Virus record (IMG/VR): IMGVR_UViG_3300036715_000626
Span: 62,001 to 126,000 of that record
Reading direction: 5' to 3' (one strand)
DNA: 64,000 nucleotides
Source of the DNA: a virus
This document shows positions 1,365 through 11,180 of the stretch, one piece after another. The translations under genes were made by a program, and so were the position numbers. How positions within the stretch are numbered: the first letter of the stretch is position 1; each line of letters begins with the position of its first letter. Below the pieces are notes generated by a model that worked only from the letters and a program-made list of their open reading frames with translations, made no database searches and had not been told where the DNA came from.

Positions 1365-1411
1365 ATTAAAAAATACTGTAACTACTGGCAGGAAATCCTG
1401 CCAGTAGTTAC
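1365..1411 (-). terminator. Intrinsic terminator of the split RNAP gene
   Basis: A 15-16 bp perfect inverted repeat (1378-1411, GTAACTACTGGCAGGA and its complement) is followed on the minus strand by AGTATTTTTTAAT. The TAA stop of the upstream RNAP 3' exon (1408-1410) lies inside the outer part of the stem. Confidence 0.85.
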
Positions 1412-4400
1412 ATGTTAACTGTATTTAACAGTTTTGATATTGTATCATCTACTAGATTCTCCGAATCGTCGCTAAGATAATTAGATAAAATACTATTAGC
1501 AGGAGCTAATAAAGTTAAGTTACCTGATACGCTATATGGTTTGGATAAATCTGGGATATTGTAAAACGGTCTAAGTGTTTTAAACTCTTCTGTTAGAAGA
1601 TTATCTAACAAGATAGTGAAGTTTAATTCTCTCTTATTCACATAATACGTTACTATTACGTCGCGGCTTTACCCGCTGCTCGATCTTTCGACCGATGACT
1701 GTGTTTTACACAGAAAACCCTCTTAAGGGTGAGTAGACTATATCTTATTTTTGATTGTTTTGTGTTCAAGTCTTCTGATCTTAATATGGGGGTGATCAGA
1801 AAGACTCACTAATTCTTCTAAACTGTGTCTAAGTAAGTACGAGTTTATGTTTGATCTTGGATTACCAGCATCTTTAAATACTCCTAAATACATAGCTAAT
1901 CTGAAGTTACCAAATACATAAAATACTTGTTTACCTTCTTCTCTATTACTATCAATGACTTCATATGTAGCAGCACTAATATCTACATTGTATCTACTGT
2001 TTACTACCTCTTCTTCAGTATAGTTTTTCCAAGTAAAGTCATTAACAGATGATTTTATACCATAGCCTTTAATTATCCAAGACTCATTGCATGTAGACGA
2101 TTTAGCTAATGCCGTACTAATCCTGTGATTATTTACTTGGTTGGATACCGGCTCTTTTGTTAACAAGAAATCAGATACTTCATCAATAGTGTTTAACACT
2201 ATTTCTTCTTTAAGTGTATAATCATACAGATAGTAAAAATGATCTCTCTTGATATATGGTTTAGACAACCATGTTTCTCTTGCTAATATAACTTCTTCTT
2301 TATTAACACTGTTGGGTATTTTAGTAACATCCATAGTTGGAGTAACTAGATAACCCATGGTGTATATATAACCATCTCGATTAAGAAACTTAGATAAATA
2401 TCCAATGGACATACCTGTATTATAAGATACCAACATCATACTGTTATACATAGTCCATGTCTCATCAAGTACATCATATACCCACATCTCCACAGCAGCT
2501 TTACCACTGGTATTAACAGGTCCTAAAACAAACTTATCCTTTAGAGATATAATATACCTATTTAGAATAGGATACTTATCAGAATGTTTTATATGCGATA
2601 CGATAGCTAATGGATTGACATTCAAATATTTAGACATTCTACTAATAGACATAAAAGTTTTTTCAGTATTATCCAGTATATCTTTAACAGTGACTATTGC
2701 ACTGTTCGTCCATAACCCGCTATCAACTGCGTGATTGGTATTCTCTTTACGAGTATTCCAAGCCAAATTCCAAATCCTATTATTTTGTTTATTTCCATCT
2801 TCATGATTAACAGTTGGTTTATTTTCTGGATTAGGTATCCATGCTAAAGCAACCATTCTGTGTACTTTTCTAGGGTTCCTAGCTAAGGTATCAGATGTTA
2901 ATGTGGCGTTAACATAACCATCCGGATCTAGGCTTGTTTTTAAAAGCCCTCCAGTAATAACCCGCAGTCTACCTATATTACTAGCTTCGTAACCTTTATA
3001 CCCGAGCACTGGTTTCCAGAGTTCATTTTTTAATTCCTCCTCTGTATAAGGAATGTGTTTACTTCGTATTACCACTATATTCCTTTTTTAACAAACAACA
3101 CCCCCGTATTATTTGTTCCTTTTATAAAACAATCAAAATCCTTCCGTTTCGATTTAAGGGATTTGATACCCACCCACTTGGGCCCTACTCTACTCCGTTG
3201 AGTACTTATTAGTACCGAGAGCGTCTATAGCTCTCTCATACACTGTCGTGCGTCGTTTCGATAGTCGTTGAGCACATCTCTTCATCTTACATGCTAAGAG
3301 ACTTCGCTGCGTCGATTCCCAAATCCTGATGAGTTTTTACCATTCCTTTATTTCCATTATTACGGTTAAGGTTGTTATACTCTGTTTCCAGGTATAAGTG
3401 GTATCATCAAGCTCTAACGGGGTCCCCGCAATTAGGAAGGTTATTTTACTACGCATCACTGCGTAGGGAGACAAATTATTCTTTATCTCCATCAAAGTCA
3501 GCATTGGACGACTTAGCGATGAGACCCGAGATACCAATAGTGTTATCATAGGTATCTGTTTTAAACTTACCTATATACACTGCTTGTGATGAACCTTGTA
3601 GTAGACTTGGATTCCGTTGTGCTAAGACCATAATCTTTCTGTCAGGCGCTTCGTTAATGAGTTCCTGTAACAGTTCATCGATAAGCGGTATGTACCGTTT
3701 AACCGCGTCAAACAGCATGTTACTTGCTTTCTTATACGTCATTTTACGTTGATTAACCAACTTGTTTATAAGATGAGGTCTAAACGCAGTTACTCCGATA
3801 GCCCAAGGTACCCATATCTCGTCATGACGATGTTTACCAGGGATACTTGTAATAACTGATCTGAAAGTAAAATGTGATCTTGCTCCGTATACATGCTTAC
3901 GAAATAATCCTACTTTCTTAGTAATATACCGTTCATAGTAGTTATGATACAATGAAGCTAATTTAGAAATAACTACCGATGTATGAGATGCATTTTTACG
4001 ATGGCTTTGTTTCTCACTTGTAGAGTTAATCTTAATCCACGTCATAACAACATCAATAACATCCGATACCGCTAAGTTAATAAATTTACCTTTAGTGGTA
4101 TTTTCCATAACGAAGAGTTTCTTATTGATAATCGGTAAATAGTTACTGAAGATGAGATCCTTTTGATGGGTATACATGTCCAATAACAAATACAAGTTAT
4201 CTTGTTTATCGATATCTTTAAACTTAGCATGGTTCATCAGATACTGAATGATTTCAGGGAGTTTGATAATAAAGTTCTTATAAGAACGTTCTACCATAAT
4301 CTCTTTGATACCATGAGTAAAGTTTTGGAGTTCCACCGGTGGGTTATACATTGGATCAGTCATCCATCGTACATAATCGATTTTCTTATCGAGAATGTTA

Positions 4401-4732
4401 CGTAGCATCAACCAGTAAGCTGGGTTGATAAATTCTAACCCATCTTCTAATTTTTCTAACCAAAGCATAGGATCTACTTTTTCATGCACTTCTTTACAGA
4501 CAGTACCGCATGAACTACATACTTTTTCAAGTAGATAGCGACCTTTAAGGTTACCACAATCACAGGAAGGAATAGTAGATAGTATATCACTGTCATAAAC
4601 AGTAATCAGTTGGTTGTTAACTTCTTCGATGTCATCTACTGAGAAATGATCTAGGTTGTTAACGATTACTTTAAACCCTGTGGAGTGTGCGAAGAATTCG
4701 TCGAAATTGACTAAACGTTGTGTGATAGCCAT
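1408..4732 (-). CDS. Non-virion RNA polymerase beta' N-terminal subunit, split by a group I intron
   Basis: Exon 1 is 4732-3485 (416 codons) and exon 2 is 1647-1408 (79 codons), giving 495 residues after splicing. Exon 1 has the beta' zinc module (C57, C59, C72, C75; CDCG...CSSCG), a segment like the beta' Arg-Asn-Pro region (VLAQRNPSLL) and the catalytic Mg-binding NADFDGD at 412-416. The intron follows this motif directly; without splicing the frame stops two codons later (K-E-stop). Exon 2 continues in frame with YYVNKREL. A second beta'-N gene with the virion gene order lies at 49787-51415, so this copy most likely belongs to the non-virion polymerase (phiKZ gp74-like). The start ATG has an AAAGGAG site and an early-type promoter. 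Exon boundaries are inferred from P1 pairing, the terminal G and frame. Confidence 0.85.
1648..3484 (-). other. Group I self-splicing intron (1837 nt) with HNH ORF
   Basis: At the 5' splice site, exon GGAGAT (3490-3485) pairs with the intron guide GTCTCC (3472-3467) in six pairs ending in the expected U-G wobble. Core elements follow in order: P-like AATTGCGGGGACCCC (about 3415-3433), Q-like AATCGACGCAGCGAAG (about 3302-3319), R-like GCTCAACGACTATCG (3273-3259) and S-like AAGATATAGTC (1746-1736). R (GACTA) and S (TAGTC) can form P7. The intron ends with G at 1648, and exon bases ATTAT can pair with AATAAT-region bases in the P1 loop as P10. The HNH ORF occupies the P8-side loop and its stop codon lies inside S. 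Confidence 0.85.
1738..3075 (-). CDS. Intron-encoded HNH homing endonuclease (NUMOD4-HNH)
   Basis: This 445-residue protein begins with a NUMOD4-type segment (WKPVLGYKGYEASNIGRLR), then an HNH_3-type domain containing VHRMVALAWIPNP and VNHEDGNKQNNRIWNLAW (His, Asn and His ligands visible). A long C-terminal part probably recognises DNA. The start is GTG at 3075 with an AAAGGAATAT site. It lies wholly inside the group I intron and its TAG overlaps the intron S element. It would cut intronless RNAP alleles at the insertion site, which encodes DFDGD. phiKZ also carries an intron endonuclease in a polymerase gene, but in beta. Confidence 0.9.
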   Translation of the reverse strand: MVIRSKHIPYTEEELKNELWKPVLGYKGYEASNIGRLRVITGGLLKTSLDPDGYVNATLTSDTLARNPRKVHRMVALAWIPNPENKPTVNHEDGNKQNNRIWNLAWNTRKENTNHAVDSGLWTNSAIVTVKDILDNTEKTFMSISRMSKYLNVNPLAIVSHIKHSDKYPILNRYIISLKDKFVLGPVNTSGKAAVEMWVYDVLDETWTMYNSMMLVSYNTGMSIGYLSKFLNRDGYIYTMGYLVTPTMDVTKIPNSVNKEEVILARETWLSKPYIKRDHFYYLYDYTLKEEIVLNTIDEVSDFLLTKEPVSNQVNNHRISTALAKSSTCNESWIIKGYGIKSSVNDFTWKNYTEEEVVNSRYNVDISAATYEVIDSNREEGKQVFYVFGNFRLAMYLGVFKDAGNPRSNINSYLLRHSLEELVSLSDHPHIKIRRLEHKTIKNKI

Positions 4733-5774: not shown

Positions 5775-6476
5775 TTACATAATATCGCTTAATGTCGATA
5801 ACGTAATTAGATTAACTAAAGAACCTAATTCACTATCGCTATAGCTTTCTAACTTACTCCAGAGTTCTTCCAACTCAACTTTGTAATGCTCTACATATTC
5901 AGTATCATTGGTTATATAGCCAGTTCTACTGTATTTAGCCTTAAGATGATCGATAATGTACTTGATTTTTTCACCATAGGCGTCTAAAGAATCTTTAATA
6001 TCGGTAGGAAATTTATTAGACTTAACCATGCGTGAAATGATTGCCTGCAAATCCGGTCTACCTTTATCAGCGATTCTCAGTATTTTACTGTAAATAGAAC
6101 TTGATGATGTAACACTACTAGCTCGGTGCTCACGAACAGCATTCTCTATAATACAGAGTTCATCACTATTAAACATCTTTAGATATTTATCAGAGATATT
6201 TTTAACATAATCACCAGCTAAATCATGATGTTCCTTACGATTTTCATAAACTTTGATATCGTGAAGATACGCACACATGAAAATAATATGGTAATCGATT
6301 GAAGGTGATTTTAGTTTACACGCTAGCATAGCCATATTTTTATAAACATCATCTGCGTGATCGATCTGATGACCTAGATCGTTATGTATATAAAAGGTAT
6401 GTCTATAGTACTCCCTGGCTTCTTTTTGCCATTGATTTCTAAAATACGCCTCTATGGGTATATTTCTATTGCTCAT
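5775..6476 (-). CDS. HD-domain phosphohydrolase-like protein, 233 aa
   Basis: The metal-binding HD signature is readable: H40 in HQIDHADD, H72-D73 in AYLHDIKV and H83/H84 in KEHHD, with a conserved helical context. HD proteins are metal-dependent phosphohydrolases acting on nucleotides or signalling nucleotides. The exact substrate cannot be assigned. It is first in a three-gene run with an AAAGGA site before ATG 6476. Cleavage of host signalling nucleotides is possible but unproven. Confidence 0.8.
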   Translation of the reverse strand: MSNRNIPIEAYFRNQWQKEAREYYRHTFYIHNDLGHQIDHADDVYKNMAMLACKLKSPSIDYHIIFMCAYLHDIKVYENRKEHHDLAGDYVKNISDKYLKMFNSDELCIIENAVREHRASSVTSSSSIYSKILRIADKGRPDLQAIISRMVKSNKFPTDIKDSLDAYGEKIKYIIDHLKAKYSRTGYITNDTEYVEHYKVELEELWSKLESYSDSELGSLVNLITLSTLSDIM

Positions 6477-7223: not shown

Positions 7224-7314
7224 TGGTGGGTGCGGTAGGATTCGAACCTACGACGTTTCTTTAAATGTGGTCGATTATGAGTCGACAGGGCTCGACCGCT
7301 GCCCGTACACACCC
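7224..7314 (-). tRNA. Class II tRNA with CAU anticodon
   Basis: It has a complete cloverleaf: acceptor GGGTGTG/CGCACCC (all paired, one G-T), D stem GGGC/GCCC with loop AGCGGTCGA, anticodon stem GTCGA/TCGAC with loop CTCATAA (anticodon CAT), T arm GTAGG-TTCGAAT-CCTAC, and encoded ACCA. The variable region is 18 bases and can form a hairpin. Long variable arms belong to Leu, Ser and Tyr tRNAs, and the D loop looks Ser/Tyr-like, so a CAU anticodon here is odd. Confidence 0.85.
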
Positions 7315-7923: not shown

Positions 7924-9786
7924 TTAATAACGACCGAAACCCATATTAGAGTATCCGGTACCGAAGTTCGGCCCAGCGCTAATATTTTGACGAGCAAACC
8001 CAGAGGCATTTGTAATACCAGTGTTTTGATAGTGTTGTCCAACAAGACCGATATTGGTGTTTTCTGTAAACACGATTTCTGGTTCGTAACGAACATCAAG
8101 ACCGGCTGCTGTTGCTGCGTTTGCAAGAGTTGTGATAAAGTCAGCTGTGAATGTAACACGGATAGCTTTACCAGCGATTTCTGCATCAGGCATGATGCGA
8201 GATATGACATCTACACGATTGATAAATGGATCAGATCCACCATTCAAATCACGTGGAAGTGATGAGTAGACATATTTGTTCATAACCGCGGTATCACCAT
8301 TTTTAGCGCATACGAATGCCAAGTCGACATCACGGATATCGCGCTCACCAGATTTATCAGCCCAAACACCAGTAGGTACAACAACACCAGAAGTAGCGAA
8401 GATGTTACCGATTGGGAAATCTGATGGGAAGTTACCATCTGTCAACCAGTTAGCTGCTGCGATAAGCTCTTTAGCCGCTGCTGTTTTGTTTTCGTTGTTA
8501 CCCGGTTGGGCCGCCTGTGAGAATATCGAAAGATATGATGTTTGTGGTCCGAATGACGGAATATCCAAAGATACTACCGGCGCAAGACTGAACATTTGAC
8601 CAATGATCCCGTAGATTTCATCTGTGGTATTTTTCTTACTTGTAAGATCAAGTACCGCGCCGATACCATTAGGATTACCTTCAAGGTTGGTGATCATGTT
8701 CAATACACCTGGGGTACGATCGTTACGTGGAGTAAGAGCTGCCATCCACATATTCTTTTGAGTCATAACCATACCGGCGATCAAACCAAGAAGTGCGAAA
8801 CCTGTTGTAGGCATAGCCACCGCATCACTTGTAATCACAATATGTGGTTTAAGACGTAGTTGTGATACCATAGGCATACCTGGAACTTGCGTTTGAACAT
8901 TGTCAGGAATAGCATCGATATAACCAGAAACCGCAGCAAGTGTTTGACGACCAGTGTCAGCGTTCAACGAATGGAATTGTTGTTGTGTGTTAACACGTAA
9001 CAATTCGATACGCCAGTCTGTACGTACTGGGCGACCTGATTCATCACGAGATACAGGGTTACCCATATTTGACTCTATTTTAAGCATTGATTCACCAGAA
9101 CGACCGACCGCTTCACGGATATTCAAATCACGGGTTGTGCCGCTCGTAAGAGCTGCTTCTACGTTCAACGCGTTGAATGCAATTGGCGCGATACGACGCG
9201 CAAGCGTCGCAACATCTTCATGTGTAGCATGTACGACAAGACCGTCAACGGTGACAAATTCAGTATTTTCACCGTACTCTTTAGAAAGTGCAGATACGAT
9301 GATACGCATCAATTCAGAATCGATTGCGTCGTCAGTTGTGAAGATAAATGGACGAGTATTTGTTTTAATCGCTTGGTTAACTTCATTTGTGATTTCGATC
9401 GCTTTCATAGGACGGCGACCAGTGTCCTCGAGAAGTAACGTATAGTAGTTAACTACGCCGCCGTCCGATTTAGAAATCACGATAGTGCTGTACGCAATAC
9501 CAGTAAAAATTTCTTTGTCAATAACCGTCACACGAGGACGTTGTGCGGTTAGAATTGGTTTGAACGTTTCCAACAATGCGTTACCGATGTTCATAGTATA
9601 TTCTGAACCTTGGTTAGTGGACATTGTGTAAATGTCACGACCGCCAAAACCTATTCCCATAGGGGTTTGCATTTTAGCACCCATATTTGATTTAAGATCT
9701 GCAACTGCTGCGGCTGTTTGCGTAGCTCCTACTGAAGCACCTGCGTTTGGTTTTTGATTGTTGTTAGCATCTGAGTTTACACCCAT
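7924..9786 (-). CDS. chmA: Chimallin-like phage nucleus shell protein (candidate)
   Basis: A 620-residue protein, within the roughly 600-631 residue range of chimallins. It has a disordered Asn/Gln/Ala N-terminus, then GIGFGGRDIYTMSTN, a mixed alpha/beta core (VVNYYTLLLEDTGRRPMKA) and a flexible Gly/Asn/Tyr C-terminus. It is an isolated gene with a very strong AAGGAGA site, its own early-type promoter and codon use suggesting high expression. Chimallin forms the lattice that encloses replicating phage DNA. The tubulin and two RNAP sets elsewhere in the window fit this. The main alternative is another abundant virion protein; the major capsid protein would normally be late and in the structural cluster. 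The identification rests on general resemblance, not an alignment. Confidence 0.65.
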   Translation of the reverse strand: MGVNSDANNNQKPNAGASVGATQTAAAVADLKSNMGAKMQTPMGIGFGGRDIYTMSTNQGSEYTMNIGNALLETFKPILTAQRPRVTVIDKEIFTGIAYSTIVISKSDGGVVNYYTLLLEDTGRRPMKAIEITNEVNQAIKTNTRPFIFTTDDAIDSELMRIIVSALSKEYGENTEFVTVDGLVVHATHEDVATLARRIAPIAFNALNVEAALTSGTTRDLNIREAVGRSGESMLKIESNMGNPVSRDESGRPVRTDWRIELLRVNTQQQFHSLNADTGRQTLAAVSGYIDAIPDNVQTQVPGMPMVSQLRLKPHIVITSDAVAMPTTGFALLGLIAGMVMTQKNMWMAALTPRNDRTPGVLNMITNLEGNPNGIGAVLDLTSKKNTTDEIYGIIGQMFSLAPVVSLDIPSFGPQTSYLSIFSQAAQPGNNENKTAAAKELIAAANWLTDGNFPSDFPIGNIFATSGVVVPTGVWADKSGERDIRDVDLAFVCAKNGDTAVMNKYVYSSLPRDLNGGSDPFINRVDVISRIMPDAEIAGKAIRVTFTADFITTLANAATAAGLDVRYEPEIVFTENTNIGLVGQHYQNTGITNASGFARQNISAGPNFGTGYSNMGFGRY

Positions 9787-11107: not shown

Positions 11108-11180
11108 AAAAATAGGCTGGATTCGAACCAGCGACCGATAGCCCTTGCGGGCTATAACTCTACCACTGAGCTACTATATA
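11108..11180 (-). tRNA. tRNA-like gene, Cys(GCA)-like, abnormal anticodon arm
   Basis: It has a good D arm (GCTC-AGTGGTA-GAG) and T arm (GCTGG-TTCGAAT-CCAGC). The acceptor is weak (TATATAG/CTATTTT, five of seven pairs) with no encoded CCA. The anticodon arm ATAGCCC-GCAA-GGGCTAT can close as a 7-bp stem on a GCAA tetraloop; forced to seven bases the loop is CCGCAAG (anticodon GCA), lacking U33. It is probably a degenerate tRNA or tRNA mimic. Its 5' end overlaps a promoter. Confidence 0.5.

Follow-up and report, generated by a model that had tools for sequence, protein, structure and literature searches.

The stretch of DNA analyzed here (the window; 64,000 nt) covers positions 62001-126000 of a virus record 205,015 bases long, and its minus strand carries a split gene for the beta' subunit of a non-virion RNA polymerase (nvRNAP). 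The first exon (4732..3485, minus strand; 416 codons) ends with the residues N-A-D-F-D-G-D and encodes the N-terminal part of beta', a homologue of phiKZ gp55; it matched positions 1-423 of phrog_2987 (E 4.5e-115), and the downstream piece matched positions 423-476 of the same family. The second exon (1629..1408, minus strand; ELNFTILLDN..., 73 codons and a stop) completes the phiKZ gp55-like subunit, and its HMM match (E 2e-14) begins at position 8 of NADFDGDQ. When joined, the exons fit the phiKZ gp55 family (the N-terminal part of nvRNAP beta') over the family length, DFDGD included. The joined protein aligned with the phiKZ nvRNAP chain PDB 7ogp_A (gp55+56.1; E 5.7e-66), the alignment running across the DFDGD block and beyond it, and was ~30% identical to phiKZ-type gp55 proteins from many phages. 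Read without splicing, the minus-strand frame from 4732 runs NADFDGD-KE-stop and closes after 418 aa, two codons into the intron.

A gene for a chimallin-like nuclear shell protein (7924..9786, minus strand; phrog_4795, E 2.5e-39) lies upstream of the beta' gene, and the order of the two is that of gp54-gp55 in phiKZ; thus, judged by gene content and order, the phage is very probably nucleus-forming (Chimalliviridae, phiKZ-like). Three further genes were observed nearby on the same strand: a tRNA with a CAT anticodon and a long variable region with ~14 extra bases (7224-7314), a tRNA-like gene with acceptor-stem mismatches to which ARAGORN assigned no anticodon (2 bases, 'ca'; 11108-11180), and a gene for a 233-aa protein of phrog_3921 (5775-6476), a family of unknown function, in which an HD-phosphohydrolase-like H..HD pattern was seen by eye.

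With the best-supported boundaries, the intron occupies 3484..1630 (minus strand; 1855 nt). In a permissive covariance-model search, Rfam RF00028 aligned to 3494..3177, in the 5' half of the intron (32.2 bits, E 1.1e-5), which is below the gathering score of 50 bits; a search of the window at the gathering cut-off reported no intron, and no other RF00028 match was found in the whole 205-kb record. The low score and the blank result at the cut-off are explained by an endonuclease open reading frame (ORF) that splits the core at P8. The remaining pairings were read by hand and then checked by script. P1 (3467..3490) is formed by exon GGAGAU (3490-3485) and the adjoining AAA with UUUGUCUCC (3475-3467); it contains GGAGAU/GUCUCC, places a U.G pair at the 5' splice site, and differs on both sides from L009, one of the surveyed loci (L numbers) described below. 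The P2 hairpin CUACGC/GCGUAG (3449..3466) follows. The 5' strand of P3, CCUUCC (3435..3440), pairs with GGAAGG at 3145-3140 (CCUCUC/GAGAGG in L009), and that of P7, GACUA (R element, 3262..3266), pairs with UAGUC at 1740-1736 (S element), as supported by RF00028 and the pairing itself. The 5' strand of P8, UUUUGAUUGUUUU (3126..3138), pairs at 13/13 positions with AAAACAAUCAAAA (1761-1749), a perfect pairing reached by 0/2000 shuffles; L091 has a different 13-bp pairing in this position. P3, P7 and P8 therefore pair across the 1.3-kb ORF, and P1, P2, P3, P5, P8, P9.1, P9.2 and P9.4 stay paired with changes on both sides among the window, L091 and L009. These pairings, together with the RF00028 match and the end of exon 1 at NADFDGD, identify a group I intron whose insertion point immediately follows the DFDGD catalytic codons in nvRNAP beta', as the initial annotation had claimed from the sequence alone; the P1 and P7 pairings and the closed reading frame that it had listed also held. 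The extra P7.1/P7.2 hairpins suggest an IA-like type.

The ORF in the P8 loop (1738..3075, minus strand) encodes a predicted NUMOD4/HNH homing endonuclease of 445 aa. It is intact, with a GTG start behind GGA and a TAG stop that forms the first 3 nt of P7', and its NUMOD4 and HNH_3 domains both score above the Pfam cut-offs, so that the homing endonuclease assumed from the outset is present as a coding sequence. The product matched phrog_59 (E 6.7e-39) and was 48% identical over 439 aa to the endonuclease of L091, whose ORF likewise lies in the P8 loop. L091 (exon 1 54% identical) carries the same intron at the same site, and L009 (exon 1 49% identical) carries a copy without the ORF, which shares 75% nucleotide identity with the window over 358 nt of core, compared with 58% for the exons. 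Introns at the exact site of the window were found in Pseudomonas phage PA7, L009, L091, L093, L055 and L101. When DNA was scanned for the pattern of the P7.2-P3' block, only the contig of L009 was returned; an IMG/VR protein scan with the window exon alone returned no relatives, but alignment queries did find them.

The nearest known systems are those of phiKZ and PA7. It had been stated that phiKZ has its polymerase intron in beta and not in beta'; however, in phiKZ, gp55, gp56 and gp56.1 together make up a beta' gene that is interrupted by a group I intron (75.6 bits); the intron encodes the HNH protein gp56, and gp56.1 is the second exon (CCTAAT|...ACG|GCTGATTTTGACGGC). A phiKZ intron in beta only is contradicted by this split, by the deposited polymerase structure, whose chain is PHIKZ055 joined to PHIKZ056.1, and by gp55 from infected cells, which is 56 kDa (PMC4666361) and exceeds the expectation for the 420-residue ORF. 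The phiKZ and window introns share the gene, the catalytic block, a phrog_59 HNH endonuclease and a group I core, but phiKZ has its insertion after the Asn of NADFDGD, 18 nt upstream, an ORF 5' of the core and a canonical ACG end. PA7 (JX233784; core 74.8 bits) has the identical site GGAGAU|, the same guide hexamer GUCUCC and a phrog_59 HNH ORF, but this ORF lies 3' of P7', the intron ends in GUG| (canonical G), and the RNA polymerase is ~31% identical to that of the window; the intron is not annotated as such in the PA7 record. Although exon 1 is >90% identical between phiKZ and PA7 (L007 13169-14540 and L003 5264-6787), their introns interrupt the motif at two different places, and the endonuclease gene precedes the core in phiKZ but follows it in PA7. 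Likewise, among other phages with exons 1 >90% identical, L078 has an intron and L058-L061 have none.

The best-supported 3' boundary of the window intron is AGA|GAATTA, with exon 2 starting at 1629 (GAATTAAAC), and would give the product NADFDGD-ELNF; this assignment is based on protein homology, the P9 hairpin, the P10 register and the P9.0 pairing. In all spliced or intronless relatives surveyed, DFDGD is followed by one residue and then an LN-type strand: the intronless L008 (56% identical) reads NADFDGD-ELN, Glu directly follows DFDGD in L008, L010, L096, L097, L099 and L101, and Lys was found there in none of the surveyed relatives. The last hairpin of the P9 series, CGUAAUA-GUAACG-UAUUAUG (1641..1660), is kept in L091 and L009 as a hairpin of 7-8 bp with compensatory changes. 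Exon 2 GAAUUA (1624..1629) forms an in-register P10 with the guide UAAUUU (3478-3473) at 6/6 positions in the window and in L091, with changes on both sides. For P9.0, we used the rule that the dinucleotide beginning two positions after P7' pairs with the dinucleotide that precedes the final intron base; the two pairs formed in 23 of the 28 introns in which the S element was located, with many base-pair types, and one failure (L010a) had a mislocated S element and was not a fair test. In the window, CU (1732..1733) pairs with AG at 1632-1631, beside the last intron base at 1630. The rule places that base on an A in the window, L091 and L009, and an 11-nt tail, as in phiKZ and others, gives the same result.

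Other junctions retain a terminal G and have to be weighed against this boundary. The initial annotation had placed the 3' boundary at TATTATGTG (1647), 18 nt before the best junction; the resulting site 1648|1647 (ACG|TATTATGTG) lies at the 3' edge of the conserved P9 hairpin loop and would add YYVNKR after DFDGD, where relatives pass directly into a beta strand. More generally, in-frame codons ending in G would allow ACG|TATTATGTG, GTG|AATAAGAGA or AAG|AGAGAA, with a canonical last G and 6, 3 or 1 extra residues after DFDGD, and for the second of these GUG could give AC/GU pairs at a neighbouring offset. No surveyed relative carries extra residues where the catalytic loop meets the following strand, none of the three junctions has an in-register P10, and in L009 an in-frame TAA adjoining GAA on its 5' side rules out every junction further upstream; we therefore regard these junctions as very unlikely. 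A shift of both splice sites by one base (GGAGAUA^AAUUA, with the 3' site at AGAG|AAUUAAAC and the product DFDGD-K-LNF) would retain the near-universal terminal G and the in-register P10, and in L009 would yield an identical product. However, with this shift the U.G pair no longer sits at the splice site and P9.0 lies one base away from omega; Lys replaces the Glu of the six relatives named above in both the window and L091; and L101, which uses the junction of the window with a canonical ACG|GAATTAAAC, has G directly 5' of the same GAA codon. We consider the shift unlikely.

Two further alternatives concern the gene and the intron as a whole. The 418-aa ORF and the short downstream ORF might be separate proteins of an unspliced gene, as would be compatible with the stop two codons into the intron and with the split RNA polymerase genes that are common in these phages (PMC7598289); given the full group I core with conserved pairing, and the single chain that phiKZ makes from equivalent pieces, this is extremely unlikely. 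Alternatively, the intron might splice but be a decaying copy with an inactive endonuclease and lost mobility, a reading to which the apparent loss of an ancestral omega-G and the ORF-less copy in L009 lend some weight. It is opposed by the intact ORF, 48% identical to the intact L091 ORF and with both domains above cut-off, and by the compensatory changes kept in the core helices, and we regard it as unlikely.

Nearly all group I introns end in omega-G. The terminal G that had been annotated was not confirmed: at the AGA|GAATTA junction the last base is A in the window, L091 and L009, and G only if the junction is shifted by 1 nt, which suggests that the window intron probably ends in A (omega-A). 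The last base was assigned as G in the other 32 introns tabulated, a count that is partly built in because junctions were set by homology and the G rule; the exceptions ending in A are informative because no in-frame G is available there without added residues. Against omega-A, the guanosine-binding pair of P7 appears ordinary, and a 3'-terminal A would therefore be expected to bind it weakly. A natural lineage in a phage gene without omega-G would also put to the test the idea that the choice of 3' splice site is made by the guanosine site of P7. A group I intron without omega-G has a precedent in the 23S rRNA of Coxiella (Raghavan 2007, by its title as cited in PMC3428280). In Coxiella burnetii, one intron reportedly lacks omega-G and two introns flank a short exon of 34 nt; those introns lie in a bacterial rRNA gene, whereas the window intron lies in a protein gene, with exons of 6-20 nt in its relatives.

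Taken together, it is highly likely that a mobile group I intron separates the codon for the last catalytic Asp of nvRNAP beta' from that for the Glu next to it. In the mechanism we propose, such an intron inserted at this point, and its RNA would fold and self-splice: guanosine would attack after GGAGAU (P1, U.G), and exon 1 would then attack before GAAUUA (P9.0, P10), giving NADFDGD-ELNF. The HNH enzyme encoded in the P8 loop may cut or nick intronless DFDGD alleles in co-infecting phages, and repair would copy the intron in. In a nucleus-forming phage, this cut could act as interference against rivals, as with PhiPA3 gp210, the HNH enzyme of an intron in vRNAP beta for which nicking and interference have been demonstrated (Birkholz et al. 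2024, PMC11620839). Both are HNH-bearing group I introns adjoining conserved Asp codons in a jumbo-phage RNA polymerase, but that of PhiPA3 lies in the beta subunit of the virion polymerase rather than in nvRNAP beta'. The proposal that codons for DFDGD offer an endonuclease an almost unmutable target is not supported: synonymous changes are frequent at the site (GGA/GGG/GGT, GAT/GAC), and missense changes at a conserved vRNAP Asp allowed phiKZ to escape the related enzyme of PhiPA3 (PMC11620839).

We surveyed the motif in 87 loci, including the window, that formed 64 clusters at 90% exon 1 identity; the survey retained the best 80 of 123 loci, mostly metagenome contigs known as DNA only. Introns lay within or directly beside the N-A-D-F-D-G-D-Q codons in 23 of the 64 clusters (~1/3), a figure for the best 80 of 123 loci that relied on upstream motifs and may under-count introns elsewhere in the gene. 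Within the block, six insertion points were distinguished: five between codons (N|A, A|D, D|F, G|D and D|Q) and one that lies one base into F. Nearby, introns also occurred at RN|P, RG|A and A|PN and after the first base of the codon preceding N. Joining the exons restores N[AGC]D[FY]DGD in frame for each of the 34 introns assigned, at 25 loci, and Rfam confirmed group I cores at many of the loci. The best intron match lay at the same site for 14 of the 34, compared with a shuffled mean of 7.0 (P 0.008). L047 is intronless. L002 was considered as a broken gene and this was rejected; its exon 2 starts at GACGCTCTC after CAG|. In L032 and L081, exon 1 similarity ends at RN|P, and L081 has three group I matches before the contig ends.

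At seven surveyed loci (among the best 80 of 123), two to four introns surround exons of 6, 9, 12 or 20 nt. L010, L029 and L036 show the layout NAD|FDG|D with a 9-nt middle exon (NGD in L010, YDG in L036), so that the three catalytic Asp codons lie on three exons; L068 has a 12-nt exon and L020 a 20-nt exon. L055 (6249-7658) contains three group I introns, N|AD|FDGD|A, with exons of 6 and 12 nt, and L084 (6144-7664) contains four within ~41 codons, RN|P...RA|PNAD|FDG|D, with exons of 102, 12 and 9 nt. Tandem introns of one gene often have each other as nearest relatives (L010a/b, L029a/b, L036a/b, L084a/b), a pattern suggestive of local intron spread, with local duplication possible in L010, L029 and L036. 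Among comparable phage exons in the literature, the shortest that we encountered has 23 nt (Twort, quoted in PMC10136302). Twort orf142 and phiNIT1 rNDPL resemble the relatives of the window in having several group I introns and a very short exon in a phage gene, but these are not RNA polymerase genes, and no split of a catalytic motif is described in the passages of PMC10136302 and PMC11878797 that we consulted. A literature search that left most subscription journals outside found no paper on introns in the gp55 DFDGD codons.

Introns and inteins favour conserved sites. Here, a single stretch of 24 bases encoding the metal-binding loop of an RNA polymerase has taken in introns at six positions; the invasions were repeated and seem recent, and up to four introns lie close to one active site. 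We lean towards viewing the NADFDGDQ codons of the RNA polymerase of nucleus-forming phages as a multi-site group I landing zone in which the three metal-binding Asp codons may come to lie on separate exons of as little as 6-12 nt, and the lineage of the window as one that splices with a terminal A. The system opens several questions to experiment: what draws introns to active-site codons, how ribozymes achieve accurate splicing around exons of 6-12 nt though P1 uses most of the exon, whether splicing controls an essential polymerase, and whether endonucleases drive competition among giant phages. In the isolated phage vB_PA32_GUMS (MN563784 ~179814-181758), exon 1 similarity ends near residue 368 and an HNH gene comes next, and phage Churi (OM718002) has an HNH gene similar to that of GUMS; these phages probably contain another intron site near the RNP motif.
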